Shown here: piece by piece, positions 49,173-62,516 of the stretch
Layout of the letters: each line of letters opens with the position of its first letter
Position numbering within the stretch: the stretch's first letter is position 1
Assembly: GCF_001552075.1 (NCBI RefSeq)
Contig: NZ_BCQM01000002.1
Span: 186,001-250,000 of the forward strand
DNA length: 64,000 nt
Reading direction: 5' to 3'
DNA from: Arthrobacter luteolus NBRC 107841
GTDB lineage: Bacteria > Actinomycetota > Actinomycetes > Actinomycetales > Micrococcaceae
Notes under the pieces: model-generated
Told to the model about the DNA's origin: nothing
The model's input: only the letters and a program-made list of their open reading frames with translations
Database searches by the model: none
Made by a program: the position numbers and the translations under genes

Positions 49173-50255
49173 GCGTTTCTTCGCCGCGAACAGGCGGGAG
49201 GCCTCCGCCGCCGCGTCTACCAGCTGCTTGGCTGACGCATCCCAGTCGTAGTCGCCGGCCCGGCGCAGCCCGGCAGCGGCGGCCTCCTGCCAGCAGCCGG
49301 CGTCAGAGAGGGTTTCCACAGCCGCGGCGAACGCTTCCGGGCGGTCCGGATCCACGAGCATCGCCGCGCCGCCGGAAACCTCCCGGAAAATCGGGATGTC
49401 ACTGGCGATCACGGGGGTGCCCGCAGCCATGGACTCAATCACGGGCAGCCCGTAGCCCTCCGCCTTGGACAGCGTGACCAGCGCGGTGGCGCGGCGCAGC
49501 AGGGCGTCGTACTCCGCATCGGTTACTCCGTTGTGGAAGACCAGCCGCGACGGATCCGCGGTGAGTGCCTCCAGCTCCGCCCGCCGGTCCGGGCTGATCC
49601 TGCTGAGCAGGTGCAGGGTGTACCCCGGCAGATGCGACATCCCCCGCACGATCGTCTCGACGTTCTTGTACGGCATAAAGGAACCCATGTAGAGCAGGGT
49701 CCGGTCGGGTGCGGAACCGGCCTCACGCGGCACGGTTCCGGGCTGGGGTGCGTTGGACACCAGCCGCACCGGGCGGCGGGTCAGGCGGTGCCATTTGATC
49801 AGGTCCGCTGTGGTGTGGCTGATGGTGGCGACGGCGTCGGCCCGGTTCAGGAGCACCCGCTGCGGCCAGTAGGCCAGGTGGTAGAGCCGCCACAGCAGGC
49901 GCACCGGCAGCGGAAGGAAACCCGGCGGCGTCGGGTTCTGGTAGTAGATCAGGTCATGCAGGGTGAGGATCAGCGGATAGTTCCGCCCCCAGCTGCCCAT
50001 GGTCTGCATGGGACAGACCACCGCGTCTGCGTCGAGCCGGTTGAGTCTGCGGGCGACGAAAAGCTCCGCGGGGGAGAGCGGGGAGTTGACCTTGACCCAG
50101 GGCACGTCCGGAAGCAGGGCCAGCTGCCTCTCATCACTGATCAGTATCTGCACCTGCGCGTGCCGGGACACGGCCTCGATCAGGCTGGCACCGTACCGGC
50201 TGATCCCGTCGTGCTGGTCGGTGCGCGTGAACCGGGCATCAAACAGAATCTTCAT
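49158..50255 (-). CDS. Glycosyltransferase family 4 protein
   Basis: A 365-residue GT-B enzyme. N-terminal ILFDARFTRTDQHDGISRYGASLIEA, TLHDLIYYQNPTPPGF and ATISHTTADLIKWH define the acceptor half; LLYMGSFMPYKNVETIVRGM and SKAEGYGLPVIESMAAGTPVIASDIPIFREV (EX7E motif) the donor half. No signal peptide; probably cytoplasmic, acting on a lipid or polysaccharide precursor. ATG 50255 overlaps the hydrolase gene by four bases, third in an aldo/keto reductase-hydrolase-GT operon. Acceptor unknown. Confidence 0.9.
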   Translation of the reverse strand: MKILFDARFTRTDQHDGISRYGASLIEAVSRHAQVQILISDERQLALLPDVPWVKVNSPLSPAELFVARRLNRLDADAVVCPMQTMGSWGRNYPLILTLHDLIYYQNPTPPGFLPLPVRLLWRLYHLAYWPQRVLLNRADAVATISHTTADLIKWHRLTRRPVRLVSNAPQPGTVPREAGSAPDRTLLYMGSFMPYKNVETIVRGMSHLPGYTLHLLSRISPDRRAELEALTADPSRLVFHNGVTDAEYDALLRRATALVTLSKAEGYGLPVIESMAAGTPVIASDIPIFREVSGGAAMLVDPDRPEAFAAAVETLSDAGCWQEAAAAGLRRAGDYDWDASAKQLVDAAAEASRLFAAKKRRTAR

Positions 50256-51178
50256 GCCCGGTGCCTCCGGTCCAGGAAATCGGCGATCAGGGCGGCCGCC
50301 ACATCCGGGGCTTCATAGTGCACCAGATGCCCGCAGCCCTCGATAATTTCCAGCTCAGCGTCCGGGATCATTCCGGCGAGCCGGCGCTGCGCGGGAACCG
50401 ACCCCAGATCATCCCGGTCCGCGGCGATCAGCAGGACCGGCATCCGAAGATCGGCGGCGGAATCCCGCACGGTCTCGGAAATCGAGGAGCGGAAGGCTTC
50501 CAGTACGACGGCGCGGGAGGCGAAGGCGCTGAAGTAGGCATCGTGCTGGGCATGGATCCAGCGGCGCAGCCCCGGATCGGAGGTCTTCGCCATCATGATG
50601 CTCATACCCCGGACGATCAGGGGATTAGCCAGCAGGGCGTGCCCGGCAGCCTCCGGCAGCTTCGCCGCGGCCCGGTAGTACAGTTCGGCTGCTTTGCTGG
50701 TGATGCCCTTCGGCCCCTCCAGCGCCGGTTCGCAGATGGGGTTGACGAGGACGAGCTCGCTGATCAGTTCCGGGGACTGCGCTGCAGTGCGTGCCGCGAT
50801 GATCGAGCCGAAGGAATGGCCCAGGAGGACAGTTTCGGAACCGAGTCCGAGTGCGCGGAAACCGGCATGGACAAAATCCGCGTAGGCGGCGGCGTTGTGG
50901 CTGCCCGGCAGGACGGAACCCTGGCCGAAGCCGGGCAGGTCCGGGACGATGACGCGGTGGTTCGGCAGGGCTTCCACAATGCGAAGCAGCCCGTGGTGGT
51001 CGCCGCGGAAACCGTGGACCATAAAAACCGGCGGTGCGTCCGGAGCCGCACCGGAAGCCGGGAAGTCCCAGCACCGCTGCGAAGTTCCCTGGACCCGGTA
51101 GGTGCGGACATCAGCTTCTCGGGTGAACGGTCCGGGAGCTCCCGTTCCGGCTGTCCCGGGCCGGCGCAGCAGCCGCAT
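50252..51178 (-). CDS. Alpha/beta hydrolase
   Basis: A 308-residue alpha/beta hydrolase. Oxyanion segment VFMVHGFRGDHHG, nucleophile elbow LLGHSFGSIIAA, acid in LLIAADRDDLGSVPA, and catalytic His in IIEGCGHLVHYEAP form a full triad. It begins right after the aldo/keto reductase gene (stop and start are adjacent) and overlaps the glycosyltransferase gene by four bases. Substrate unknown; ester hydrolysis is the most general prediction. Confidence 0.9.
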   Translation of the reverse strand: MRLLRRPGTAGTGAPGPFTREADVRTYRVQGTSQRCWDFPASGAAPDAPPVFMVHGFRGDHHGLLRIVEALPNHRVIVPDLPGFGQGSVLPGSHNAAAYADFVHAGFRALGLGSETVLLGHSFGSIIAARTAAQSPELISELVLVNPICEPALEGPKGITSKAAELYYRAAAKLPEAAGHALLANPLIVRGMSIMMAKTSDPGLRRWIHAQHDAYFSAFASRAVVLEAFRSSISETVRDSAADLRMPVLLIAADRDDLGSVPAQRRLAGMIPDAELEIIEGCGHLVHYEAPDVAAALIADFLDRRHRA

Positions 51179-52015
51179 TTAGTTCACCTCGCGGGGGTCG
51201 GAGCCGGTGCGCTGGCCACGGTCCAGTGCGTCGAGGGCGGCCATCTGGGCGTCGTCGAGCTCGAAGGAGAACACATCGAGGTTCCCGGTGATCCGGTCCT
51301 CGCTGCTGGCTTTCGGGATCACGGTGTTCCCGGCCTGGACATGCCAGCGCAGGACCACCTGGGCCGGAGTCCGGCCCAGCTCGGCGGACATCTCCTTGAT
51401 GACCGGGTCGGCCAGGACAGCGCCCCGGCCCAGCGGGCTCCAGGCAACAGTGCGGATGCCGTGGGCCTCATGGAAGCCGCGCAGTCCGCGCTGCGCCAGC
51501 CACGGGTGAAGCTCCACCTGGTTCACCGCGGGCACAATCCCGGTGGCCGCGGCCAGTTCTTCCAGGTGCTCCTGGGTGAAGTTGGAGACGCCAATGGCGC
51601 GGACCCGGCCGGAGGCATAAATTTCTTCCAGCGCTCGGTACGTTTCCACGAAGAGCCCACGTCCGGGGCAGGGCCAGTGGATCAGGTACAGGTCCAGATA
51701 ATCGAATCCCAGCCGGTCCAGCGAGGCATCAAAAGCCCGGAAGGCGGCGTCGTAACCCTGGTCCGCGTTCCACAGCTTGGAGGTGACGAACAGGTCTTCC
51801 CGGACCACATGCCCGGCGTCGGTGAAGTTCCGGACCGCCGCGCCGACGCCTTCCTCATTGCCGTACAGGGCAGCAGTGTCGATGTGCCGGTAACCGGCGT
51901 CCAGGGCGGACGTAACCAGCGCCGCGGTTTCCTCCGGCGGGACCTTGTACGTGCCGAATCCGGCCTGGTCCATCTCCACGCCGTTGTTCAAGGTCAGTTT
52001 CGGTGCCCGTTGCAT
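51179..52015 (-). CDS. Aldo/keto reductase
   Basis: A 278-residue TIM-barrel NADPH reductase of the AKR5/DkgA-like group. The tetrad is visible: Asp in GYRHIDTAALYGNE with Tyr, Lys in LFVTSKLW, His in LYLIHWPCP. GVSNFTQEHLEEL and VELHPWL follow. ATG 52015 is preferred over TTG 52021 because a TAGAGT -10 lies exactly six bases before the ATG. First gene of the hydrolase-glycosyltransferase operon. Confidence 0.93.
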   Translation of the reverse strand: MQRAPKLTLNNGVEMDQAGFGTYKVPPEETAALVTSALDAGYRHIDTAALYGNEEGVGAAVRNFTDAGHVVREDLFVTSKLWNADQGYDAAFRAFDASLDRLGFDYLDLYLIHWPCPGRGLFVETYRALEEIYASGRVRAIGVSNFTQEHLEELAAATGIVPAVNQVELHPWLAQRGLRGFHEAHGIRTVAWSPLGRGAVLADPVIKEMSAELGRTPAQVVLRWHVQAGNTVIPKASSEDRITGNLDVFSFELDDAQMAALDALDRGQRTGSDPREVN

Positions 52016-52021
52016 GCTCAA

Positions 52022-52027
52022 ACTCTA
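52022..52027 (-). promoter_or_regulatory. -10 box of the aldo/keto reductase operon (leaderless)
   Basis: TAGAGT on the minus strand, six bases before the ATG at 52015. No Shine-Dalgarno of consensus form in the gap. Confidence 0.45.
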
Positions 52028-52276
52028 CCGAGATCGGGCGCGGGGGTTGTATCGGGGGTCGAGGAGCTCCCCGGACGCAGCTATTGTGGGCTGCTGACCT
52101 GCACTTTTAAAGTTTTCATGGCGCTGGAGGTAAAAGCTTGATTGCATAGGGCCTACAGTGCGCCGAGCTGGAAGGCCCCCGACTGCGCTTCACCCAGGTC
52201 TATCCCGCTCTCAGAACACGATCAATCCATGAGAACCGCTCAATAAAAACATCAAACTATGGATCGGAGGGAGTCG
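52028..52276. promoter_or_regulatory. Regulatory interval upstream of glpF
   Basis: About 250 bp without a gene between divergent transcription units. It contains ACTTTTAAAGT (52103-52113, a near-perfect dyad), a possible -10 TACAGT (52154-52159) and the AT-rich stretch CAATAAAAACATCAAAC just before the glpF ribosome-binding site GGAGGGAG. Which elements form the glp promoter or operator is unclear. Confidence 0.3.
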
Positions 52277-53023
52277 ATGGTGACTCTAGGACAGGTATTC
52301 GTCAGCGAAATGCTGGGTACCGCAGCGCTGATCGTCCTGGGCTGCGGCGTCGTCGCAAACGTGGCTCTGGCGAAAACCAAGGGCAACGGCGGCGGCTTCC
52401 TGATGGTGAACTGGGGGTGGGGCCTCGGTGTTTTCGCCGGCGTCTACCTGGCAGCCATTTCGGGCGCCCACATTAATCCCGCCGTGACGGTGGGCATCAT
52501 CACCAGCGGCGCCGAGGAGTTCGTCCCGGGAATCCCCGTGGACATCGGCTCCACGCTGACCTACTTCGCGGGGCAGCTGCTCGGTGCCATGATCGGAGCC
52601 TTCGTGGCCTGGCTGGCCTACAAGAAACAGTTCGATGATGAGCCGGACCCGGCCAACATCCTTGGCGTGTTCTCCACCGGGCCTGCCATCCGGTCCTACG
52701 GCTGGAACCTCGTCACCGAGATCATCGGTACGTTCATGCTGATGTTCGTGATCGTGGCGTTCGCCGGTTCGGTCACCGGGCTGGGCCCCCTGGCCGTGGC
52801 GCTGCTGGTTGTCGGCATCGGTGCGTCGCTCGGCGGTCCGACCGGGTACGCCATCAACCCGGCGCGTGACCTCGGCCCCCGGATCGTTCACGCCCTGCTG
52901 CCCATCCGCAACAAGGGAAACAGCGACTGGTCCTACGCCTGGGTGCCCGTCCTCGGGCCCCTGATCGGCGGAGCACTTGGCGGCTGGGTCGGCTCGTTCA
53001 TCCCGCTGCCGGATATCCTCTAA
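52277..53023 (+). CDS. glpF: Glycerol uptake facilitator (MIP family)
   Basis: A 248-residue six-helix channel. The first pore motif is [12 protein letters not shown] and the second [13 protein letters not shown]; the Asp after the second NPA marks a glycerol facilitator, as in GlpF, rather than a water-only aquaporin. ATG 52277 follows GGAGGGAG with a normal gap; an ATG at 52259 lies upstream of that site. It precedes glpK by 46 bp and both are probably one transcript: uptake, then trapping by phosphorylation. Confidence 0.93.
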
Positions 53024-53069
53024 CCGATCCCCGGGCCGCACGATCTACTCACCTCGAAGGAGAGACCAA

Positions 53070-54596
53070 GTGTCAGACAGCAAGCAGCAGTACGTCATTG
53101 CGATCGATCAGGGAACCACGAGCAGCCGGGCGATTGTCTTCGACCACGCCGGCAGCATCGTGTCCTCCGGACAAAAAGAACATGAGCAGATCTTTCCCCG
53201 CGCCGGCTGGGTGGAGCACAACCCCGAAGAAATCTGGACCAACGTCCGCGAAGTCGTCGGAACCGCGCTCTCCAAGGCCAACCTCACCCGGCACGACATC
53301 GCCGCCGTCGGCATCACCAACCAGCGCGAAACCGCGGTGGTCTGGGACCGCTACACCGGCAAACCCGTCTACAACGCCATCGTCTGGCAGGACACCCGGA
53401 CCCAGCCGATCGTGGACGCACTGGCCAAGGACGGGGGGATGGACCGGTTCAAGGCCAAGGTGGGCCTGCCGCTGGCAACCTACTTCTCCGGCACCAAGAT
53501 CAAGTGGATCCTCGACAATGTCGACGGTGCCAGGGAAAAGGCCGAAAAAGGCGAACTGATGTTCGGGAACACGGACTCCTGGGTGGTCTGGAACCTCACC
53601 GGCGGGGTGGAAGGCGGGGTCCACATCACCGACGTCAGCAACGCCTCACGGACCATGTTTATGGACCTGGACACGCTGCAGTGGGACGACTCGATCCTTG
53701 AGACCTTCACCGTTCCGAAGTCGATGCTCCCCGAGATCCGTTCCTCATCCGAGGTGTATGGAACGGTGCACGGCTCCCAGCTGCTGCGGGAGGTCCCGGT
53801 GTCCGGGATCCTCGGCGACCAGCAGGCCGCCACCTTCGGGCAGGCAGCCTTCGGAATCGGGGATGCAAAGAACACCTACGGGACCGGTAACTTCCTGATC
53901 TTCAACACCGGCGAAGAGAAGGTGATGTCCCAGAACGGCCTGCTCACCACGGTGGCCTACAAAATCGGGGACAGGCCCCAGGTCTATGCCCTCGAAGGTT
54001 CCATCGCCGTCACCGGCTCACTGGTCCAGTGGCTGCGGGACAACCTCGGCATCATCAAGAGCGCCCCGGAAATCGAGAAGCTGGCCCAGTCGGTGGAGGA
54101 CAACGGCGGCGTGTACATCGTTCCGGCGTTCTCCGGCCTCTTCGCGCCGCACTGGCGCGCGGATGCCCGCGGTGTGATCGTTGGCCTCACCCGGTTCGTG
54201 AACAAGAACCACATTGCCCGGGCCGCGCTGGAAGCCACGGCCTTCCAGACCCGGGAGGTGCTCGACGCCGTCAACGCCGACTCCGGTGTTCCGCTCACCG
54301 AACTGCGGGTCGACGGCGGTATGGTCGCCAACGATGCGCTGATGCAGTTCCAGGCGGACATCCTGGGTGTGGACGTTGTCCGCCCCGAGGTCGTGGAAAC
54401 CACGGCCCTCGGAGCCGCGTACGCCGCGGGCCTCGCCGTCGGCTTCTGGAATGACACCGCGGAACTCGCCTCGAACTGGAAGGAAGACAAGCGCTGGACT
54501 CCGCAGATGGACCCGGCGGAGCGCGACCGCCAGATGCGGCTGTGGAACAAGGCCGTCACCCGCACCTTCGACTGGGTGGACGAAGACGTAAAGTAG
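53070..54596 (+). CDS. glpK: Glycerol kinase
   Basis: A 508-residue FGGY-family kinase. [18 protein letters not shown] is the phosphate-binding start, [31 protein letters not shown] holds the glycerol-contacting Arg-Glu and Trp/Asp, and [10 protein letters not shown], then [19 protein letters not shown] follow. GTG 53070 lies after AAGGAGAG. A glycerol-3-phosphate dehydrogenase gene (glpD) is not in the window. A strong hairpin ends the unit. Confidence 0.97.
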
Positions 54597-54621
54597 CCCG
54601 GCCGGAGTCCTCCTGTGCCGG

Positions 54622-54663
54622 CACAGGTAATGCCGTTTCCTCCGGGAAACGGCATTACCTGTG
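54622..54663 (+). terminator. Terminator hairpin after glpK
   Basis: A perfect 19-bp stem (54622-54640 with 54645-54663) with a TCCG loop. Only two Ts follow, so release may depend on stem strength or Rho. Confidence 0.75.
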
Positions 54664-54733
54664 TTCCGGGAAGCCCGGGTGGCGGGTCCGCGGCACACCC
54701 CGGTCCGCTGCCGCCGTCGGGCCTTCCCTGTTG

Positions 54734-54739
54734 TAAAGT
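54734..54739 (+). promoter_or_regulatory. -10 box of the leuS leader transcript
   Basis: TAAAGT followed by six bases (GGATAA) and the ATG of the leader peptide at 54746, so the leader ORF itself would be translated from a leaderless transcript. No clear -35. Confidence 0.45.
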
Positions 54740-54745
54740 GGATAA

Positions 54746-54772
54746 ATGACCGCTTTGCTCCTCCTTACATAG
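54746..54772 (+). CDS. Leucine-rich leader peptide of the leuS attenuator (MTALLLLT)
   Basis: An eight-codon ORF: ATG ACC GCT TTG CTC CTC CTT ACA TAG. Codons 4-7 are four consecutive leucines using three different codons. It starts at the predicted transcription start and ends where the first leader hairpin begins, 145 bp before leuS. When leucyl-tRNA is short, a ribosome should stall on the Leu run, the logic of leader-peptide attenuators for leu, ilv and trp genes. Too short for gene finders; the call rests on codon content, position and the downstream terminator. Confidence 0.75.
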   Translation: MTALLLLT

Positions 54773-54794
54773 CCGCGTTTGTGTAGAACGCGGC
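54772..54794 (+). promoter_or_regulatory. First leader hairpin of the leuS attenuator
   Basis: GCCGCGTT (54772-54779) pairs with AACGCGGC (54787-54794) around a seven-base loop. Its 5' arm begins at the leader-peptide stop codon, so a ribosome stalled on the Leu codons would be expected to cover it. Pause or anti-antiterminator hairpin. Confidence 0.6.
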
Positions 54795-54822
54795 AGCCCC
54801 TTGCATTTGACGAGGGGCTTTT
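54795..54822 (+). terminator. Attenuator terminator upstream of leuS
   Basis: AGCCCCTTG (54795-54803) pairs with CGAGGGGCT (54811-54819) with one G-U pair and a CATTTGA loop, followed by TTTTGTGTGT. It is an intrinsic terminator within a leader, abutting the first hairpin, 95 bp before the leuS start. No alternative antiterminator pairing was convincing by eye. Confidence 0.75.
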
Positions 54823-54916
54823 GTGTGTCTGGGAAGAGTCAACAGCGCAGGCGGAGACGGCGGCACGCCGGAAACCGCGGATCACCAGGATTCATTGAGG
54901 ACAGAGGCGAAGCATA

Positions 54917-57415
54917 GTGAGCACGCAGTCACAGACTGACCAGTCGGAAGAGGCCGTATACAGTTTCGCGGCCATGGAGCAGAAGTGGCCGGCTGTCTGG
55001 GACGACCTAGGCGTTTTCACCCCGGCCGACGACGGAACGCGTGAACGCCGCTACGTCCTGGACATGTTCCCCTACCCCTCCGGCGACCTGCACATGGGCC
55101 ACGCTGAAGCATTTGCCATGGGCGATGTTGTGGCCCGCTACTGGCGCCAGCTCGGCTACGACGTGCTGCACCCGATCGGCTGGGACTCCTTCGGCCTGCC
55201 CGCTGAAAACGCGGCCATCAAGCACAACGCCCACCCCAGCGAGTGGACCTACCGCAACATTGACACCCAGGCGGAGTCCTTCAAGCGTTATGCGATCAGC
55301 GTGGACTGGTCCCGGCGCCTGCACACCTCCGATCCCGGCTACTACCGGTGGACGCAGTGGCTGTTCACCCGCTTCTACGAGCGTGGACTGGCCTACCGGA
55401 AAAACTCCCCGGTCAACTGGTGCCCCAAGGACCAGACCGTGCTGGCCAATGAGCAGGTTGTCAACGGGGCCTGTGAACGCTGCGGCACCCAGGTCACCAA
55501 GAAGTCCCTGAACCAGTGGTACTTCAAGATCACCGACTACGCCGACCGGCTCCTGGACGACATGGAACAGCTCAAGGGCCACTGGCCGGAGCGCGTCCTG
55601 GCCATGCAGAAGAACTGGATCGGCCGCTCCGAAGGCGCCCACGTCCGCTTCAATATCGAAGCCGCCGACGGCAAGCCCGAAGAGCAGGTCACCGTCTTCA
55701 CCACCCGTCCGGACACCCTCTTCGGAGCAACCTTCTTCGTTGTCGCGGCCGACGCCCCGCTGGCACTGGACCTGGTGACAGAAGACCACCGTGCGTCCCT
55801 GCTGGAGTACCGCGAGCAGGTCAAGGCACTCTCCGACATCGAACGCCAGGCCACCGACCGCACCAAGACCGGTGTCTTTACCGGCCGTTACGCGGTCAAC
55901 CCGCTCAACGGTGAAAAGCTGCCGGTCTGGGCTGCCGACTATGTGCTGGCCGACTACGGCACCGGCGCCATCATGGCCGTGCCGGCCCACGACCAGCGCG
56001 ACCTGGACTTCGCGAAGGCCTTCAACCTGCCCGTGCGCGCCGTGCTCGACACCGGTGAAGAGGATCCCGCCGTCTCCGGCACCGCCACCACCGGCGAGGG
56101 AACGCTGGTGAACTCCGGCAGCCTGAACGGCTTGCCGAAGGCCGAAGCCATCCCGGCGGCCATCAGCGTCCTCGAGGAGAAGGGCACCGGCGAGAAGTTC
56201 GTGAACTTCCGGCTGCGTGACTGGCTGCTCTCCCGGCAGCGCTTCTGGGGAACCCCTATCCCGATCATCCACTGCGAAAAGTGCGGCGAGGTTCCGGTCC
56301 CGGATGACCAGCTGCCGGTGACCCTGCCGGACAACCTGAAGGGTGAGGCGCTGGCGCCCAAGGGCACCTCGCCGCTGGCATCGGTCGAGGAATGGGTCAA
56401 TGTGGACTGCCCGTCCTGCAGCGGTCCGGCCAAGCGGGACACGGACACCATGGATACGTTCGTGGACTCCTCCTGGTACTTCATGCGCTTCGTTTCCCCG
56501 CACTTCACCGAGGGTCCTTTCGATCCCGAAGCCGTGCGCAACTGGATGCCGGTGGGGCAGTACGTGGGCGGCGTGGAGCACGCCATCCTGCACCTGCTCT
56601 ACTCCCGCTTCTTCACCAAGGTCGTCAAGGACATGGGCCTGATCGAAGCCGACGAGCCGTTCTCCGCCCTGCTGAACCAGGGCCAGGTACTCAACGGCGG
56701 CAAGGCCATGTCCAAGTCGCTGGGCAACGGTGTGGACCTGGGCCAGCAGCTGGACAAATACGGTGTCGACGCCGTCCGCCTCACCATGATCTTCGCCTCC
56801 CCGCCCGAGGACGACGTCGACTGGGCGGATGTCTCGCCGTCGGGCTCCGCCAAGTTCCTGGCCCGCGCCTGGCGCCTGGGCCAGGACATCACCAGCGAAC
56901 CCGGCGCGGACGTCTCCACCGGCGACAAAAAGCTCCGCGCGGTAACCCACCGCACGGTCGCCGACGCCGCCGATCTGCTGGATGCCGGCAAGTTCAACGT
57001 GGTCATCGCCAAGTTGATGGAACTGGTCAATGCCACCCGTAAGACCATCGATTCCGGTGCCGGCGCAGCCGACCCCGCCGTCCGCGAAGCCGCCGAAGCC
57101 GTAGCCGTGATCCTGAGCCTCTTCGCGCCGTACACGGCTGAAGACCTCTGGAACGCGCTGGGCCACCCCGCTTCCGTGGCGAACGCCGGCTGGCCGGCAG
57201 TAGACCCGGCCCTGCTGGTCCAGGACACGGTGACTGCCATCGTCCAGGTCAAGGGCAAGGTCCGCGACCGGCTCGAGGTGCCGGCAGACATCACCGAGGA
57301 TGCGCTGCGCGAGCTGGCGCTCTCCTCGGAGCAGATCATCAAGGTCCTCGACGGCGCCGGGATCCGCACGGTGATCGTCAAGGCCCCCAAGCTCGTGAAC
57401 ATCGTGCCGGCCTAG
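54917..57415 (+). CDS. leuS: Leucyl-tRNA synthetase
   Basis: An 832-residue class I synthetase. HIGH-type motif [23 protein letters not shown]1 editing domain with [22 protein letters not shown], zinc-like Cys pairs [24 protein letters not shown] and HCEKCGEVP, and KMSKS-type [18 protein letters not shown] 54917. It is the only synthetase of the three in this window with a leader-peptide attenuator, so expression should respond to leucyl-tRNA charging. degV follows 11 bases after the stop. Confidence 0.97.
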
Positions 57416-57426
57416 GACTGGGCTTC

Positions 57427-58551
57427 ATGGACTGGACGGCGCTGCGCGGACGGTGGTTCAAGCCCCGGGCAACCGGGCCTGGCCCTGTGCCGCCGCCGCG
57501 CGTCGCCGTCGTTACCGATTCATCCTGCTCCCTGCCCAGCGGCTGGGCAGGGTCGGACCGTGCTGCGGACCTGGTCCGGGTCGTTTCGATGCCGGTGATG
57601 ATCGGCGACCAGATCTACGGTGAGGGCACCGACAAAATGATCGGTGCCCTGGCCCTGGCCCTTGCCCAGGGACAGGACGTCCGCACGTCCCGGCCGGCGC
57701 CGGGCCAGTTCGAGGCGGTGTACGCCGAACTCGCTGCAGCCGGTTATGCCGCCGTGGTTTCTGTCCACCTGTCCGGGAAACTGTCCGGCACCGTGGACTC
57801 TGCCAGGCTGGCGGCGCGGACCGCAGAAATTCCGGTCCGAGTGGTCGACACCGCGTCCGTGGCCATGGGACTGGGATTTGCGGTTGAGGCAGCTGCGGAA
57901 GCCGCTGCGGAAGGTGCGGACGCTGAGACCGTGGCGGCAGCAGCCGCGTCCTGTGCCGCAGCAGCGGACATCCTGTTTTACGTCCCCAGCCTCGAGCAGC
58001 TCCGCCGCGGCGGCCGGATCGGCGCGGCGGCCGGATGGTTCGGAACGCTGCTTGCGGTCAAACCGATCCTGGCTATCCGCGACGGCCTCGTGGTTCCGAT
58101 CGAACGCGTCCGCACCGCGCCCAAAGCCCTGGCCCGGCTGGAGGAGCTCTGCCGTGCGGAGCTCGCCGCCCGCACCGGACCGGTGCGCGTGGCTGTCCAC
58201 CATTTCGGCAACGAAGCGGAGGCCGAGCGTCTGGCGTCTGCGGTGATCCGCGAACGCCCCGGGGCGAAGGTCCTGCTGTGTCCACTGCCGGCGGTGCTGG
58301 CGGCGCACGCGGGTCTCGGTGTGTTGGCTGTGGCTATTTCGACGGCGGTGGTCCCCGGCGAGGCTGAGGCTGGCACGAAGGCCAGCGTTTCTGCCGGCCC
58401 CGGACCGGCAGAAACCAAGGATGCGGGCCAGCGGCATCCGGCACCGTCCCGCAGCCAGCGGCCGGTTACCGCCGGGCAGGCAGAGGCCCCCGCTCCGGCC
58501 AGCGGCCCAATCCCGGTGCAGGACCCGCACGGGGATACGGACATCGACTGA
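57427..58551 (+). CDS. DegV family fatty acid-binding protein with C-terminal extension
   Basis: A 374-residue protein whose first about 290 residues are a DegV fold: VAVVTDSSCSLPSGW at the start, VRTSRPAPGQFEAVYAELAAAGYAAVVSVHLSGKLSGTVDSARLAA, then FYVPSLEQLRRGGRIGAAAGWFGTLLAVKPIL. DegV (FakB-like) proteins bind a fatty acid and present it to the FakA kinase; no fakA is adjacent. Residues about 305-374 are a Pro/Ala/Glu-rich tail absent from typical DegV proteins and probably disordered. ATG 57427. Confidence 0.88.
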   Translation: MDWTALRGRWFKPRATGPGPVPPPRVAVVTDSSCSLPSGWAGSDRAADLVRVVSMPVMIGDQIYGEGTDKMIGALALALAQGQDVRTSRPAPGQFEAVYAELAAAGYAAVVSVHLSGKLSGTVDSARLAARTAEIPVRVVDTASVAMGLGFAVEAAAEAAAEGADAETVAAAAASCAAAADILFYVPSLEQLRRGGRIGAAAGWFGTLLAVKPILAIRDGLVVPIERVRTAPKALARLEELCRAELAARTGPVRVAVHHFGNEAEAERLASAVIRERPGAKVLLCPLPAVLAAHAGLGVLAVAISTAVVPGEAEAGTKASVSAGPGPAETKDAGQRHPAPSRSQRPVTAGQAEAPAPASGPIPVQDPHGDTDID

Positions 58552-58616
58552 CCCTCCACAACTTCCGGCAATCACTGGAAAAGCCCGAAGGCGTCCACAA
58601 CTGCAGGTGGTGACCC

Positions 58617-58637
58617 GCCTGGACAGGGAGTCCAGGC
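58617..58637. promoter_or_regulatory. Inverted repeat at the comEA promoter
   Basis: GCCTGGAC (58617-58624) and GTCCAGGC (58630-58637) form a perfect 8-bp dyad with a five-base spacer, ending one base before the -10 TAGGTT. A repressor bound here would block polymerase, so it is an operator candidate for the competence genes. Confidence 0.45.
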
Positions 58638-58638
58638 C

Positions 58639-58644
58639 TAGGTT
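58639..58644 (+). promoter_or_regulatory. -10 box of comEA (leaderless)
   Basis: TAGGTT, six bases (GCAGTG), then ATG 58651. No Shine-Dalgarno sequence in the gap. Confidence 0.45.
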
Positions 58645-58650
58645 GCAGTG

Positions 58651-59748
58651 ATGGCCGCACACCGCTGGGACACCGAACCTGCACAGATCCTGCCCTCACG
58701 CCTGGCGGTCCGCCGCCGCAGGGAACGGCAGGCGACTGGCCTGCCGGAAGCAGCGTCCGGCGGATTGGACGGTCCGCACCCGCGCAGTCCCAAGCCGCTG
58801 GGGACCCGTCTGGGCGGGACCGCTTCGGACCAGGTTCCCCCGTGCAGCAGCACTGAGGGCGCCGCAGAACACCTACAGGACGAGCCCGCTGAGCGGCGGG
58901 CCGTCCCTCCGCGGCGGTGGCGGTTTCCGCTGCGTGCGGCCGCCCTGTTCGCGTGCCTGCTGCTGGCGGCCGCGGTTGCCATACCCCTGCTCCGGATCCG
59001 CGCGCCACATGAGTCCATTGCCGTAGATCTCGGTGCCGATGTGAATACCGCAGTGGGCAGCACGGCAGGCGATGCCGAGCTGTCACGGTCCTCAGCAGGG
59101 AAGCCCGGGCCGGACCAGACCGGGCCCAATCTTGCACCGGACCAAGGATCGAATCCGGGAGCTGCCTCCCCGGATTCGATGCCCGGCAGCTCCCGGCAGG
59201 GACCGGAACACGGAACCGCCACCGGCCCGGAACTGGTGGTCCATGTGGCAGGTGCGGTGGCAGCTCCGGGCATCGTGCGCATCAAGACCGGTGGAAGGGT
59301 GGCCGACGCTGTTGGCGCAGCCGGCGGGGCTCTGCCGGAAGCTGACCTCACGCTGGTGAACCTCGCCGCGCCCATGGAGGACGGAAGTATGGTGGTGGTC
59401 CCCGTGGTGGGTGCAGCGGTTCCGGGGCCATCTGGAGTGTCCGGAGCCGTCGTTCCTGCCGGGCCTGCTGGACAGGGGAGCCTCAGCGGTCTGGGCAGCA
59501 CCGGGGGACATCCGCCCGGGTCGGGGGCCGGGTCAGGTGCCGGAAAAGCAGCCGCGGGACCGGTCAACCTCAACACCGCCACTGACGCTGAACTTCAGAC
59601 CCTGCCCCGTGTAGGGCCGGTCCTGGCGGCACGTATCGTGGCCTGGCGGACGGAGCACGGATGGTTTACCCGGCCGGAGGATCTGGACGCTGTTCCAGGA
59701 ATCGGGGAGGCGATGCTCGCAGCGCTCGTGCCGCTGGTCACGGTCTGA
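58651..59748 (+). CDS. comEA: ComEA family DNA-binding competence protein
   Basis: A 365-residue membrane-anchored DNA receptor. A cytoplasmic Arg/Pro-rich N terminus precedes one membrane helix (LRAAALFACLLLAAAVAIPLL), an extracellular Pro/Gly linker, an SLBB domain (ELVVHVAGAVAAPGIVRIKTGGRVADAVGAAGG) and a C-terminal helix-hairpin-helix pair (VNLNTATDAELQTLPRVGPVLAARIVAWR, then DAVPGIGEAMLAALVPL). It is longer than Bacillus ComEA through its linkers. ATG 58651 fits the -10 box. comEC follows 29 bp after its stop codon. Confidence 0.93.
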   Translation: MAAHRWDTEPAQILPSRLAVRRRRERQATGLPEAASGGLDGPHPRSPKPLGTRLGGTASDQVPPCSSTEGAAEHLQDEPAERRAVPPRRWRFPLRAAALFACLLLAAAVAIPLLRIRAPHESIAVDLGADVNTAVGSTAGDAELSRSSAGKPGPDQTGPNLAPDQGSNPGAASPDSMPGSSRQGPEHGTATGPELVVHVAGAVAAPGIVRIKTGGRVADAVGAAGGALPEADLTLVNLAAPMEDGSMVVVPVVGAAVPGPSGVSGAVVPAGPAGQGSLSGLGSTGGHPPGSGAGSGAGKAAAGPVNLNTATDAELQTLPRVGPVLAARIVAWRTEHGWFTRPEDLDAVPGIGEAMLAALVPLVTV

Positions 59749-59777
59749 CCCGTGGAAATGTTAGCTGGGAAAACCGG

Positions 59778-62516
59778 GTGAAACGGCAGACCCGCTGGGC
59801 CCGCTACACGGCGGCTGCTGTGTCACCTCTGCCGGATGCGCCGCCTCCACTCACGGAGGCGTCCTTCGGGCCCGGCAGGTTGCGCTCCGACAATGCTGGA
59901 AGCGGACACCCACGCATGCCGCCGTCCGGCGCGCATCGAGCCGCCGAAGCAGCCGCAAGGCTCTTCGGGACATCAGGCACACCTTTGCCCCTGACGGAGC
60001 TTCGGCTGGTTCCCGCAGCGGCTGCGGCCTGGTTCGCCGCCGCTGCCACGATCCGGATGCCGGCAGCGGCCGCTTTCCTCACGGCAGGTGCGGGGACAAT
60101 CCTGCTGCTCGTTCTTGGCGCGGTGGTCCTGCTCCGGCACAGCGGCGCGGAGCGGCGGGCGGCAGCAGCGTGCGTTGCTCCGCTTGCCGTCGTCGTCTTG
60201 GTTGCTGCCGCGGCTGGAACCTCCCTGCTGCACCGCACCAGCGGTCCGGTCCACGATGCGATTGCTGGACAGAGGGTTATCTCGGGGGAGTTCCGCGCCG
60301 CAGGGGATGCCCGGCCCGGGGCTCCGGACCGTTTTAGCGGAGAGATCCGTTATCTGGTGTCGGCACGGCTGGAGAATTTCACACTGGGTGGGAAACGCTC
60401 GACCGCCGAGGCGCCGGTGCTGGTCATCGGCGGTAACGCTTATGCGGACATCCGGCTGGGAGACAGGTTCTCCACCTCCGGTACCCTTACGGCAACCCAA
60501 GCGGGGGACCCGGCCGCAGCGGTGCTCCGGGCCGGCCAGTCTCCGGCGGTCATCCCGGCGGAAGGACTCTACGGCACGGCATCGGACCTGCGGGAGAACT
60601 TCACGGAACTCTCGAAGGAGCTGGGACCTTCCGATGCCTCCGGCCTGCTGCCCGGCATGGTGCTGGGAGACCGGGCAGCACTTGCAGACGACCTTGCGGC
60701 AGCCATGAAGGACACCGGGCTGACCCACCTCACGGCGGTCTCCGGCGCCAACTGCAGCTACCTGCTGGCTTTCGTATTCCTGGCAGCGCGGCTGCTGCGG
60801 CTGCCGAGGTTCTGGGCAGCGGCCGCAGGGCTCACGGTCCTGGCCGCGTTTGTGCTGGTGGTGCGTCCGGACCCCAGCGTCCTGCGTGCCGCGGTGATGG
60901 GATCCATTGGAACGGCTGCGGTGCTGACCGGGCGGGGCAAGGTCCCAGCCGCACTCCTCTGCCTGTGCACAACGGTTCTTCTGGCCATCGATCCGTGGCT
61001 CAGCGGGAGCTACGCCTTTATTCTCTCGGTGTGCGCCACCGCCGGGCTTATTGTCCTGGGACCCAGGTTCGCAGCATCGCTGGAACGGGTTCTGCCCCAG
61101 CCGCTGGCAGTGCTCACGGCCGTGCCGCTGGCAGCGCAGGTTGCCTGCGCACCGGTTCTCATCCTGCTGCAGCCCAATGTGCCGCTCTATTCGGTGCCTG
61201 CCAATATCGCAGCTGCGCCGGTGGTCCCCATGGTCACCATCGTAGGCATGGCCGCTGTCATCCTGGCGTCCGTCCTCCCGGCCCTGGCCTTCCTGCCGCT
61301 GTGGACAGCCGGCGCGGGCGCAGGTTGGGTGGCAGCGGCAGCGCGCTTCTTTGCCGACGCCCCTGGTGCCCTGCTGCCGTGGCTGCCCGGCGCCGCGGGT
61401 GCTGTCCTGATGACGGCTGCCAGCGCGGCCCTGGCCGGCGGCATCCTGTTGCTCGGCAGGAGCCGGCCGGCGGCTGTATCCGGTGAGGGGGAAAGCCGTA
61501 GGGTCCGGATAGTCCGGAGAAACGGCGACGGGAGCCCATCTTGGAGCAACTGGCGCTGGCTGGCGGTGGGCGCAGTTCTGCTGCTGGCCGTGACAGTGTT
61601 CCTGTGGTGGCGGCCGGGTCAGGGCACTCCCGCGGCCGGAGACTGGGCTGCTGCTGCCTGCGACGTGGGTCAAGGCGACGCGATGGTGATCCGCACCGGT
61701 CCCGCAGCGGCGGTCGTTATCGACGCCGGGCCCGAACCACGGGCCCTGGACCGCTGCCTTGATGACCTGGGGATAGACACCGTTGACCTCCTTGTTATCA
61801 GCCACGTCCACGCCGACCACTACGCAGGCGCTGAGGCAACAGTTGATGGACGGACGGTGCACGGCCTGGCCTTTTCCTCGGCAGAAACGGAACTGCCCCG
61901 GGAGATCGCAGGCCTGGCGGCGGGGCTGGACGTGGAGCCGCAGCGGCTCACCCGCGGGATGCACGGCGAAAGCGGAGACGTGCAGTGGCAGGTCCTCTGG
62001 CCGCCTGCCGGTGCGCCGGCTGGACCAGGAACATCGCCTGGTGCTGGTGCTGGTGCTGGTGCTGGTGCTGGTGCTGGTGCTGGTTCACGTACCGGTGCCG
62101 GCGCTGAGGCCGGCACCGGAAGGGCCCCGGGAATGATCACGAATGAGAACGATGCCAGCGCTGTCCTGCTGCTCCAGGCCGCCGGCCTCACGTTTCTCTT
62201 TACCGGGGACATCGAAGCGGAGGCCGCGGTCCGCCTGCTTCAGTCCACCCCGGCCCTGCGGGATACACGGATCGATGTCCTGAAAGTGGCACACCACGGC
62301 GCCCGCAACGGTGGTGCAGCTCTGCCGGCTGCCCTTCAGCCGAGGCTGGCAGTCATTTCAGTGGGCGCGGACAACACCTACGGCCATCCGTCCCCCGACA
62401 CACTGGACGCCCTGGAGGCGGCAGGGGCGCAGGTTGCCCGTACCGATCTGCTGGGGACGTTCACCCTGCGGACTGACGGACACCGCCTGACCGTGGAACG
62501 GCTTCGAGGCGGCTAG
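59778..62516 (+). CDS. comEC: ComEC/Rec2 DNA-uptake channel
   Basis: A 912-residue polytopic protein. An OB-like extracellular region (residues about 170-270) is followed by the Competence membrane domain (GMVLGDRAALADDLAAAMKDTGLTHLTAVSGANCSYLLAF) with many helices, and a C-terminal metallo-beta-lactamase-like domain (VGQGDAMVIRTG, LLVISHVHADHYAGAE, VLKVAHHGARNG). A Gly-Ala repeat of variable type interrupts the latter. GTG 59778 is a tentative start: no strong ribosome-binding site, but the longer frame overlaps comEA. holA, often next in Actinobacteria, does not follow. Confidence 0.92.
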   Translation: MKRQTRWARYTAAAVSPLPDAPPPLTEASFGPGRLRSDNAGSGHPRMPPSGAHRAAEAAARLFGTSGTPLPLTELRLVPAAAAAWFAAAATIRMPAAAAFLTAGAGTILLLVLGAVVLLRHSGAERRAAAACVAPLAVVVLVAAAAGTSLLHRTSGPVHDAIAGQRVISGEFRAAGDARPGAPDRFSGEIRYLVSARLENFTLGGKRSTAEAPVLVIGGNAYADIRLGDRFSTSGTLTATQAGDPAAAVLRAGQSPAVIPAEGLYGTASDLRENFTELSKELGPSDASGLLPGMVLGDRAALADDLAAAMKDTGLTHLTAVSGANCSYLLAFVFLAARLLRLPRFWAAAAGLTVLAAFVLVVRPDPSVLRAAVMGSIGTAAVLTGRGKVPAALLCLCTTVLLAIDPWLSGSYAFILSVCATAGLIVLGPRFAASLERVLPQPLAVLTAVPLAAQVACAPVLILLQPNVPLYSVPANIAAAPVVPMVTIVGMAAVILASVLPALAFLPLWTAGAGAGWVAAAARFFADAPGALLPWLPGAAGAVLMTAASAALAGGILLLGRSRPAAVSGEGESRRVRIVRRNGDGSPSWSNWRWLAVGAVLLLAVTVFLWWRPGQGTPAAGDWAAAACDVGQGDAMVIRTGPAAAVVIDAGPEPRALDRCLDDLGIDTVDLLVISHVHADHYAGAEATVDGRTVHGLAFSSAETELPREIAGLAAGLDVEPQRLTRGMHGESGDVQWQVLWPPAGAPAGPGTSPGAGAGAGAGAGAGAGSRTGAGAEAGTGRAPGMITNENDASAVLLLQAAGLTFLFTGDIEAEAAVRLLQSTPALRDTRIDVLKVAHHGARNGGAALPAALQPRLAVISVGADNTYGHPSPDTLDALEAAGAQVARTDLLGTFTLRTDGHRLTVERLRGG
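62037..62091 (+). repeat. Hexanucleotide microsatellite in comEC
   Basis: GTGCTG repeats eight full times (62041-62088) with partial units on both sides, encoding a (Gly-Ala)n run in the metallo-beta-lactamase-like domain. The unit is six bases, so slippage would change length in frame by Gly-Ala dipeptides without causing a frameshift. Confidence 0.9.

Follow-up and report, generated by a model that had tools for sequence, protein, structure and literature searches.

A predicted leucine leader-peptide attenuator of leuS in Actinomycetes, with fixed codon and hairpin spacings and a proposed ribosome-gated hairpin

How might an open reading frame (ORF) of only eight codons, half of them leucine codons, govern the leucyl-tRNA synthetase gene that lies behind it? 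The question arises on the forward strand of the analyzed stretch of DNA (64,000 nucleotides; here called the window), where leuS (54917..57415, start GTG at 54917) gave a full-length LeuS match. The ten best-ranked named LeuS relatives (L008 to L017) belong to Arthrobacter, Pseudarthrobacter, and Paenarthrobacter, with identities of 83 to 86%. Judging from their translations, the genes 5′ of leuS are glpF-like and glpK-like, and the leader sits between glpK and leuS. After glpK, a long near-perfect inverted repeat at 54625-54662 (AGGTAATGCCGTTTCC / GGGAAACGGCATTACCT) is followed by GTGTTCCGGG, a tail that resembles the one 3′ of the leuS terminator.

The leader opens with a −10 promoter element of the TANNNT type (TAAAGT, 54734..54739), 6 nt 5′ of the ATG of the leader ORF MTALLLLT (54746..54772). 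After the ATG at 54746, the codons read ACC GCT TTG CTC CTC CTT ACA TAG and thus include four adjacent Leu control codons (TTG CTC CTC CTT, 54755..54766). The last of these, CTT (54764-54766), lies 5 nt ahead of hairpin P1 (54772..54794; GCCGCGTTT / GAACGCGGC), whose first base is shared with the stop codon (TAG, 54770-54772). Folded by itself as a 34-nt piece, P1 forms nine pairs at −16 kcal/mol. After a spacer of 0 to 1 nt comes an intrinsic-terminator-like hairpin, T (54795..54819; AGCCCCTTG / CGAGGGGCT), which runs into a U-tract and a conserved tail (54819..54832; TTTTGTGTGTCTGG). A terminator scan of 54550-54960 returned a single terminator-like site, 54795-54819 followed by TTTGTGTGTC, with 0.5 expected from shuffles, and 97 bases separate the end of T from the leuS GTG at 54917. 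The leader as a whole (54734-54835) folds at −46.6 kcal/mol, compared with −27.5 (standard deviation [SD], 3.6) for shuffled sequences (z = −5.3; 0 of 200 as good). Two of the features by which attenuators are recognized are found here, namely, an ORF with a run of the relevant codons and a predicted intrinsic terminator between this ORF and the gene. The coordinates and anatomy given in the preliminary description proved correct on reading, folding, and terminator scanning.

To follow the leader into other genomes, we used a covariance model (R1) built from an alignment (A1) of the window leader and 22 others chosen by eye; the 22 were taken from 29 named loci with a strong R1 match, and they and the window leader match R1 by construction. 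Among 80 named LeuS loci, the upstream R1 match was strong (E < 1e-10) in 29 and weak in 2. In two Yaniella loci (L025 and L031), a glpK-like frame ends shortly 5′ of leuS and there is no leader matching R1. All 29 genomes of the genus contained a match, as did 77 of 149 family genomes at an E value of 1e-4 (72 had none at that threshold) and 238 of 393 class genomes at an E value of 0.01, the class and family searches being run with Infernal's stricter filters. These genome counts cover any R1 match, of which the weaker ones may be leaders of other genes; the downstream gene was checked for part of the class and family matches.

Where the downstream gene of collected leaders was checked, it was LeuS in 126 of 127; the exception, L186, has no LeuS downstream and resembles an ilvB-type leader. 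Twenty of the 28 other leaders of the genus were fetched, and all 20 had LeuS downstream and an in-frame start followed by CTT, 5 nt, and GCCG. The peptides of congeners include MTALLLLR, MIAVLLLS, and MNAFLLLR, and those of related leaders farther afield include MRAILLLS, MRRTLLLT, and MRAVRLLLSEPR. One congener (L230) encodes MTALLNLR, in which the penultimate control position holds Asn in place of Leu and the CTT is kept, a natural case useful for telling which codon matters. LeuS was downstream in 30 of the 31 loci read first, and over the best segment these 30 proteins were 54 to 100% (20 loci) or 37 to 49% (10 loci) identical to the window protein, meaning that the leader is common to rather different LeuS proteins. 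At L112, L115, L117, and L118, it precedes a LeuS only about 40% identical to that of the window. The leader may predate the split of these divergent LeuS proteins, or it may have been transferred.

The leaders also indicate where transcription may begin. A script placed the start codon in 125 of the 127 leaders (L186 was among those missed), and a TANNNT box was present 5′ of the start in all 125, at 6 nt in 97 and at 7 nt in 28. Among control start codons, such a box at 4 to 8 nt was found in 5 of 2258. The start was defined as the in-frame ATG or GTG with the best-placed box, which favors the TANNNT count, though not to the observed extent. The leader mRNA is therefore probably leaderless, as had been suggested for the window from its TAAAGT alone.

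For quantitative analysis, we aligned 100 of the 127 collected leuS leaders (A2); the 27 left out were mostly close relatives of those kept, along with some divergent ones (L168, L169, L172, L173, and L186), and L131 (at a contig end) and L188 to L198 lay outside the analyzed leaders. In A2, which was fitted to the model structure and is thus biased in favor of it, pairing is seen in 97.6% of 1398 cells, both partners vary in 11 of 14 pairs, and 135 cells are double changed. None of 500 shuffles reached these pairing and covariation values, and with the partner column offset by 1 to 3 positions, 15 or fewer double-changed cells remained. Both stems contribute, with double changes in six of the eight modelled P1 pairs and five of the six modelled T pairs. 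The preliminary description had made conservation in relatives one test of its reading: the ORF, P1, and T are all kept, and both stems covary. Its identification of a leucine leader-peptide attenuator of leuS is supported by this conserved ORF and by the covarying hairpins, and, judged from sequence, the leader is almost certainly a transcription attenuator of this kind.

The conserved leaders follow strict codon and spacing rules. The last control codon encodes Leu in 100 of 100 leaders, CUU being used in 94 and CUC in the other 6. CUU accounts for 2.1% of 1347 Leu codons in a background of 20 leuS genes. Going back from this codon, Leu is present in 100, then 98, 84, and 7 of the 100 leaders, a drop away from P1 which indicates that the codon nearest P1 is the most constrained one, and it is a rare one. 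The distance from the last control codon to P1 is exactly 5 nt in every one of the 100 leaders and in the 20 congeners. The spacer between P1 and T is also nearly fixed (1 nt in 84 leaders, 2 in 13, 0 in 2, and 3 in 1), despite a P1 loop that ranges from 4 to 52 nt. In 90 of the 100 leaders, the stop codon takes one of two positions, counted from the first base of P1: TAG at −2 (33 leaders) or TGA at +7 (57 leaders).

These spacings acquire meaning when set against the dimensions of the ribosome. According to the available text of a study of Escherichia coli ribosomes, the mRNA channel accommodates 11 nt counted downstream from the first P-site base, and A-site tRNA binding is inhibited by stem-loops 11 to 12 nt downstream (PMC7282821). 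With this E. coli value, P1 starts at +12 when the last control codon is in the A site, and none of the eight bases of its 5′ arm are inside the channel, while a ribosome at the stop codon takes in six (33 leaders) or eight (67 leaders) of them. By geometry, then, P1 depends on ribosome position and can stand only before the last Leu codon is decoded or when no ribosome is present. If the footprint is instead 26 nt centered on the codon, as is assumed in the part of PMC13236596 available to us, a ribosome at the last control codon already covers the foot of P1, and the gate would blur. A P1 stem at this position might also slow the decoding of CUU and so act as a possible latch.

The leader very probably switches leuS on when leucine is short. 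Since leuS should rise when leucyl-tRNA is scarce and the geometry leaves P1 intact in that state, P1 should be the ON structure; since P1 takes none of the bases of T, it would have to act by sitting at the foot of T. We thus infer both that starvation leads to read-through and that P1 acts on T by adjacency. The resulting proposal, which we hold to be somewhat more probable than its negation, is that P1 serves as a ribosome-gated antiterminator: it would persist only as long as the last Leu codon awaits decoding and would block T through its adjacent position. RNA polymerase would start at or beside the leader ATG, and a 70S ribosome would translate the leaderless eight-codon ORF. With leucyl-tRNA scarce, the ribosome would wait at the Leu codons, the last of which is CTT, rare in these genomes; with CTT in the A site, P1 would begin just outside the mRNA entry channel and be free to fold. 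The base of the short T stem must presumably close inside the exit channel of the polymerase, where a rigid helix could stop closure, and P1, if folded next to the base of T, would in this way keep T from closing fully and allow read-through into leuS. With leucine plentiful, the ribosome would reach the stop codon, the channel would take up six to eight bases of the P1 5′ arm, and P1 would be prevented; the short T stem would then close and transcription would terminate. It counts against the blocking of T by P1 that the two are compatible in secondary structure.

In an attenuator of the classical type, one arm of T would instead be sequestered by pairing with an antiterminator, which we would have missed, for example, because it varies between clades. 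We consider this quite unlikely, even though it is the textbook mechanism, the available text of PMC1262725 describes the leuS leaders of Streptomyces as classical ones containing both an antiterminator and a terminator, and the ilvBNC hairpins of Corynebacterium glutamicum share a GCC trinucleotide according to the part of PMC11857589 at hand. A covariation scan of the 100 leaders, ranked by APC-corrected mutual information among pairs with pairing gain, found no sequestering antiterminator: nine of the ten best-scoring pairs fall in P1, its loop, or T, and columns 38 and 47, which make up the remaining one, can pair in only 58% of leaders. In the stalled state, while the 3′ arm of T has yet to emerge, the mean probability that its 5′ arm is paired with upstream RNA is 0.28, compared with 0.42 when the upstream sequence is shuffled, and the value exceeds 0.7 in 3 of 100 leaders. 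Extension of P1 into T was not above chance (13, against 15.1 expected); the mutually exclusive pairing of classical attenuators was likewise not found. In equilibrium folding, T had a probability greater than 0.8 in 91 of 99 leaders when P1 could form and in 92 of 99 when a stalled ribosome masked it (to 12 nt beyond the codon), and no block of T by P1 was seen. The preliminary remark that no antiterminator pairing was obvious thus holds across 100 leaders by covariation, folding, and overlap.

Two particular pairings were considered and rejected as antiterminators. Over the 100 leaders, pairing between the freed 3′ arm of P1 and the U-tract averaged 3.0 expected pairs in the stalled state, against 0.56; as a general antiterminator, it came to −17.5 with the real arms and −17.5 with shuffled arms, being better in 29 and worse in 48 of the 100. 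The window leader is among the better cases: for its freed arm, pairing with the U-tract comes to 6.8 expected pairs, at −22.4 kcal/mol versus −19.2 kcal/mol with shuffled arms, and such pairing would be another antitermination route, of the opposite sense. The LEU element of leuA is characterized by a pseudoknot in which Leu codons pair with the Shine-Dalgarno box of the gene. Pairing of the Leu codons (CUCCUU) with GAGGGG is possible by inspection in the leuS leader, but it lacks covariation and runs in the wrong direction for induction by starvation.

The same geometry could be read the other way, with P1 aiding termination as a pause hairpin or stabilizing hairpin for T: a ribosome on the leader would mask P1 and permit read-through, and after its departure P1 and T would terminate together. 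The two hairpins do fold together, and their 1-nt spacer would permit coaxial stacking; the conservation of codons is highest at the one nearest P1, and under the centered 26-nt footprint (PMC13236596, available part) the 5′ core of P1 is already beneath the ribosome at the last Leu codon. In the window, the freed P1 3′ arm can pair with the U-tract, which would suit a helper role; over the 100 leaders, such arms do so no better than shuffled ones. With the 11-nt channel, however, masking of P1 begins only after the ribosome has moved past the last control codon. T with its tail has no apparent need for help, reaching a mean of −13.8 kcal/mol alone. A hairpin beside a terminator is, moreover, an antiterminator in C. 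glutamicum ilvBNC, going by the accessible text of PMC11857589. On balance, we regard a helper role for P1 as unlikely, though deserving of attention, and prefer the reading in which P1 is the ribosome-gated antiterminator.

That the short ORF is a chance neighbor of an ordinary terminator, with no leucine control of leuS, is scarcely credible given that the leader is kept in 29 of 29 congeners, that the last codon shows a bias of 94% versus 2.1%, that the spacings are fixed, and that the leaderless promoter layout is class-wide. Translational control is very improbable as well. On that account, the GAGGGG in the T 3′ arm would be the ribosome-binding site of a second small ORF, with RTG 7 bases on, that is coupled to leuS. 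Among 124 of the 127 collected leaders (L186 included), the triplet located exactly 7 nt 3′ of the final G of the stem is ATG, GTG, or TTG in 89 and CTG in 4 more; in the window, the GTG at 54825-54827 opens a 30-codon frame whose TAG overlaps the leuS GTG. The 23 leaders of A1 had seemed to favor this GAGGGG-N7-RTG arrangement strongly, and it fell because neither frame nor stop is conserved (across species the frame is in frame, is out of frame, or ends early) and because Streptomyces-type leaders have RTT, not a start codon, at that spot. The U-tract between the two elements also suits a terminator better. In the same 124 leaders, UG occupies positions +9/+10 after the last stem G in 93 (T54826-G54827 in the window). 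The elemental-pause consensus, G(−10) Y(−1) G(+1), would put the RNA 3′ end at +9/+10, i.e., at T54826-G54827 of the window; with only six control terminators, the pause motif in the tail is a lead as an attenuator feature.

Leaders of the same plan occur before other genes. We read 21 weaker R1 matches (20 second or third matches and one in the window's own genome), and by their downstream translation motifs, 13 precede ilvB-type genes, 7 precede citramalate-synthase-like genes, and 1 precedes a dehydratase-like gene. These leaders use Ile or Leu/Val codons, and in 16 of the 21, counted by eye, P1 begins 5 nt after a branched-chain codon; L208 is visible only in part, the distance in L214, L216, and L217 is 5 or 6 nt depending on one outer G, and folding delimits P1 cleanly in only some of the 21. 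In the window's own genome (G000), the match L089 (contig C1:19169-19293, minus strand; 26 bits) stands before an ilvB-type gene, and in its leader ORF exactly 5 nt separate CTT from a GCGCGTG stem, with a terminator-like hairpin next. Before the citramalate-synthase-like genes (L200, L201, L202, L204, L208, L214, and L217), P1 and T follow mostly Ile codons, as in MHRTTIIIS; three N-terminal fragments of this gene type match the citramalate synthase family TIGR00977 best, at scores below its whole-protein cutoff. In L216, a single Ile codon (ATT) precedes P1 by 5 to 6 nt, and the threonine/serine-dehydratase-like fragment downstream matches several such families, EutB first; that this gene is ilvA is a guess.

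Taken together, these leaders may belong to a class-wide actinobacterial attenuator family before leuS, ilvB, citramalate-synthase-like genes, and perhaps threonine-dehydratase-like genes. Its members would have no base-paired antiterminator; a hairpin one entry channel (5 nt) past a single rare switch codon would read decoding, perhaps hold the ribosome, and block the adjacent terminator sterically, through contact with the terminator or the polymerase. We offer this wider proposal tentatively, as somewhat less than an even bet. If P1 does act without sequestering the terminator, attenuation would need nothing beyond adjacency and the position of the ribosome, a mode absent from the textbook scheme. 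With these leaders, a predicted RNA control of an essential gene that was reported in a few Streptomyces reaches much of the class Actinomycetes, and the leaders at ilvB and citramalate-synthase-like genes are relevant to amino acid production strains. The proposal also yields sharp, testable numbers: the switch codon CUU 5 nt from the hairpin and the hairpin one nucleotide from the terminator.

The enterobacterial trp, his, and leu attenuators likewise combine leader-peptide control codons with a terminator, but there a 2:3 antiterminator sequesters an arm of the terminator, and no such structure was found here. The leuS genes of Firmicutes carry T-box leaders, in which control is exerted by the charging of leucyl-tRNA; the controlled gene is of the same kind, whereas the sensor here is a translated ORF. 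Searched against Rfam, positions 50000-62000 of the window contained no family that reached its gathering score and no T-box up to an E value of 5, in agreement with the first impression that leuS lacks one.

Nearer relatives are found in the ilv attenuators of Actinobacteria, here compared through the accessible parts of the reports. In Mycobacterium tuberculosis ilvB1, changing LVVI to AAAA abolishes induction, and the proposed model has the antiterminator covered by a ribosome that has reached the stop codon (PMC13236596). That system resembles the leuS leader in the control codons of its upstream ORF, its intrinsic terminator, and the masking by a stop-codon ribosome, and it differs in its gene and amino acid set and in being described as two mutually exclusive structures. 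In Corynebacterium ilvBNC, too, an upstream ORF with branched-chain codons precedes an intrinsic terminator, and in C. glutamicum the antiterminator lies directly beside it; unlike in the leuS leaders, where overlap does not go beyond chance, that antiterminator competes by pairing, through the shared GCC (PMC11857589). In the Corynebacterium ilvB-II motif, pairing of the P1 loop with the right shoulder of the terminator (P2a) forms the antiterminator (PMC10272879). We regard M. tuberculosis ilvB1 and C. glutamicum ilvBNC as precedents, by analogy, that agree in part with the direction of control proposed for leuS. The available text of PMC11109978 lists an ilvB motif in Corynebacterium and does not mention leuS, nor do the available parts of PMC10272879 and PMC8914203. 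Among the open-licence papers listed, no title or abstract opening described a class-wide leuS leader, the 5-nt rule, or a citramalate-synthase attenuator.

The closest counterparts are the leuS leaders of Streptomyces, and with them the earlier impression that an actinobacterial leuS attenuator had not been described is not supported. Classical attenuators were predicted before leuS of Streptomyces avermitilis and Streptomyces coelicolor in 2005 (Seliverstov et al., PMC1262725), and in 2021 a leaderless leader peptide, LeuL2 (MRAVRLLLSEPR), was reported before leuS of Streptomyces lividans together with a hairpin and a run of U residues (PMC8079986), both according to the text available to us. 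These share with the window leader the gene, a peptide with a Leu run, the hairpin(s), and the U stretch, and LeuL2 is leaderless, as the window leader probably is. The LeuL2 peptide occurs in 3 of our 100 leaders, and these three match R1 and align with the window leader; a single covariance model thus finds and aligns the window and Streptomyces-type leuS leaders over the Leu run, P1, T, and the U-tract. The window leader has the short form (MTALLLLT, with TAG at the foot of P1), not the longer LLLSEPR form. The Streptomyces leaders of 2005 were given a classical antiterminator, as far as the available text goes, whereas no sequestering one was found in the 100 leaders compared here. An attenuator of leuS is therefore not new as a kind; what is new is its class-wide design, with its codon and spacing rules and a gate geometry that involves no sequestering antiterminator.
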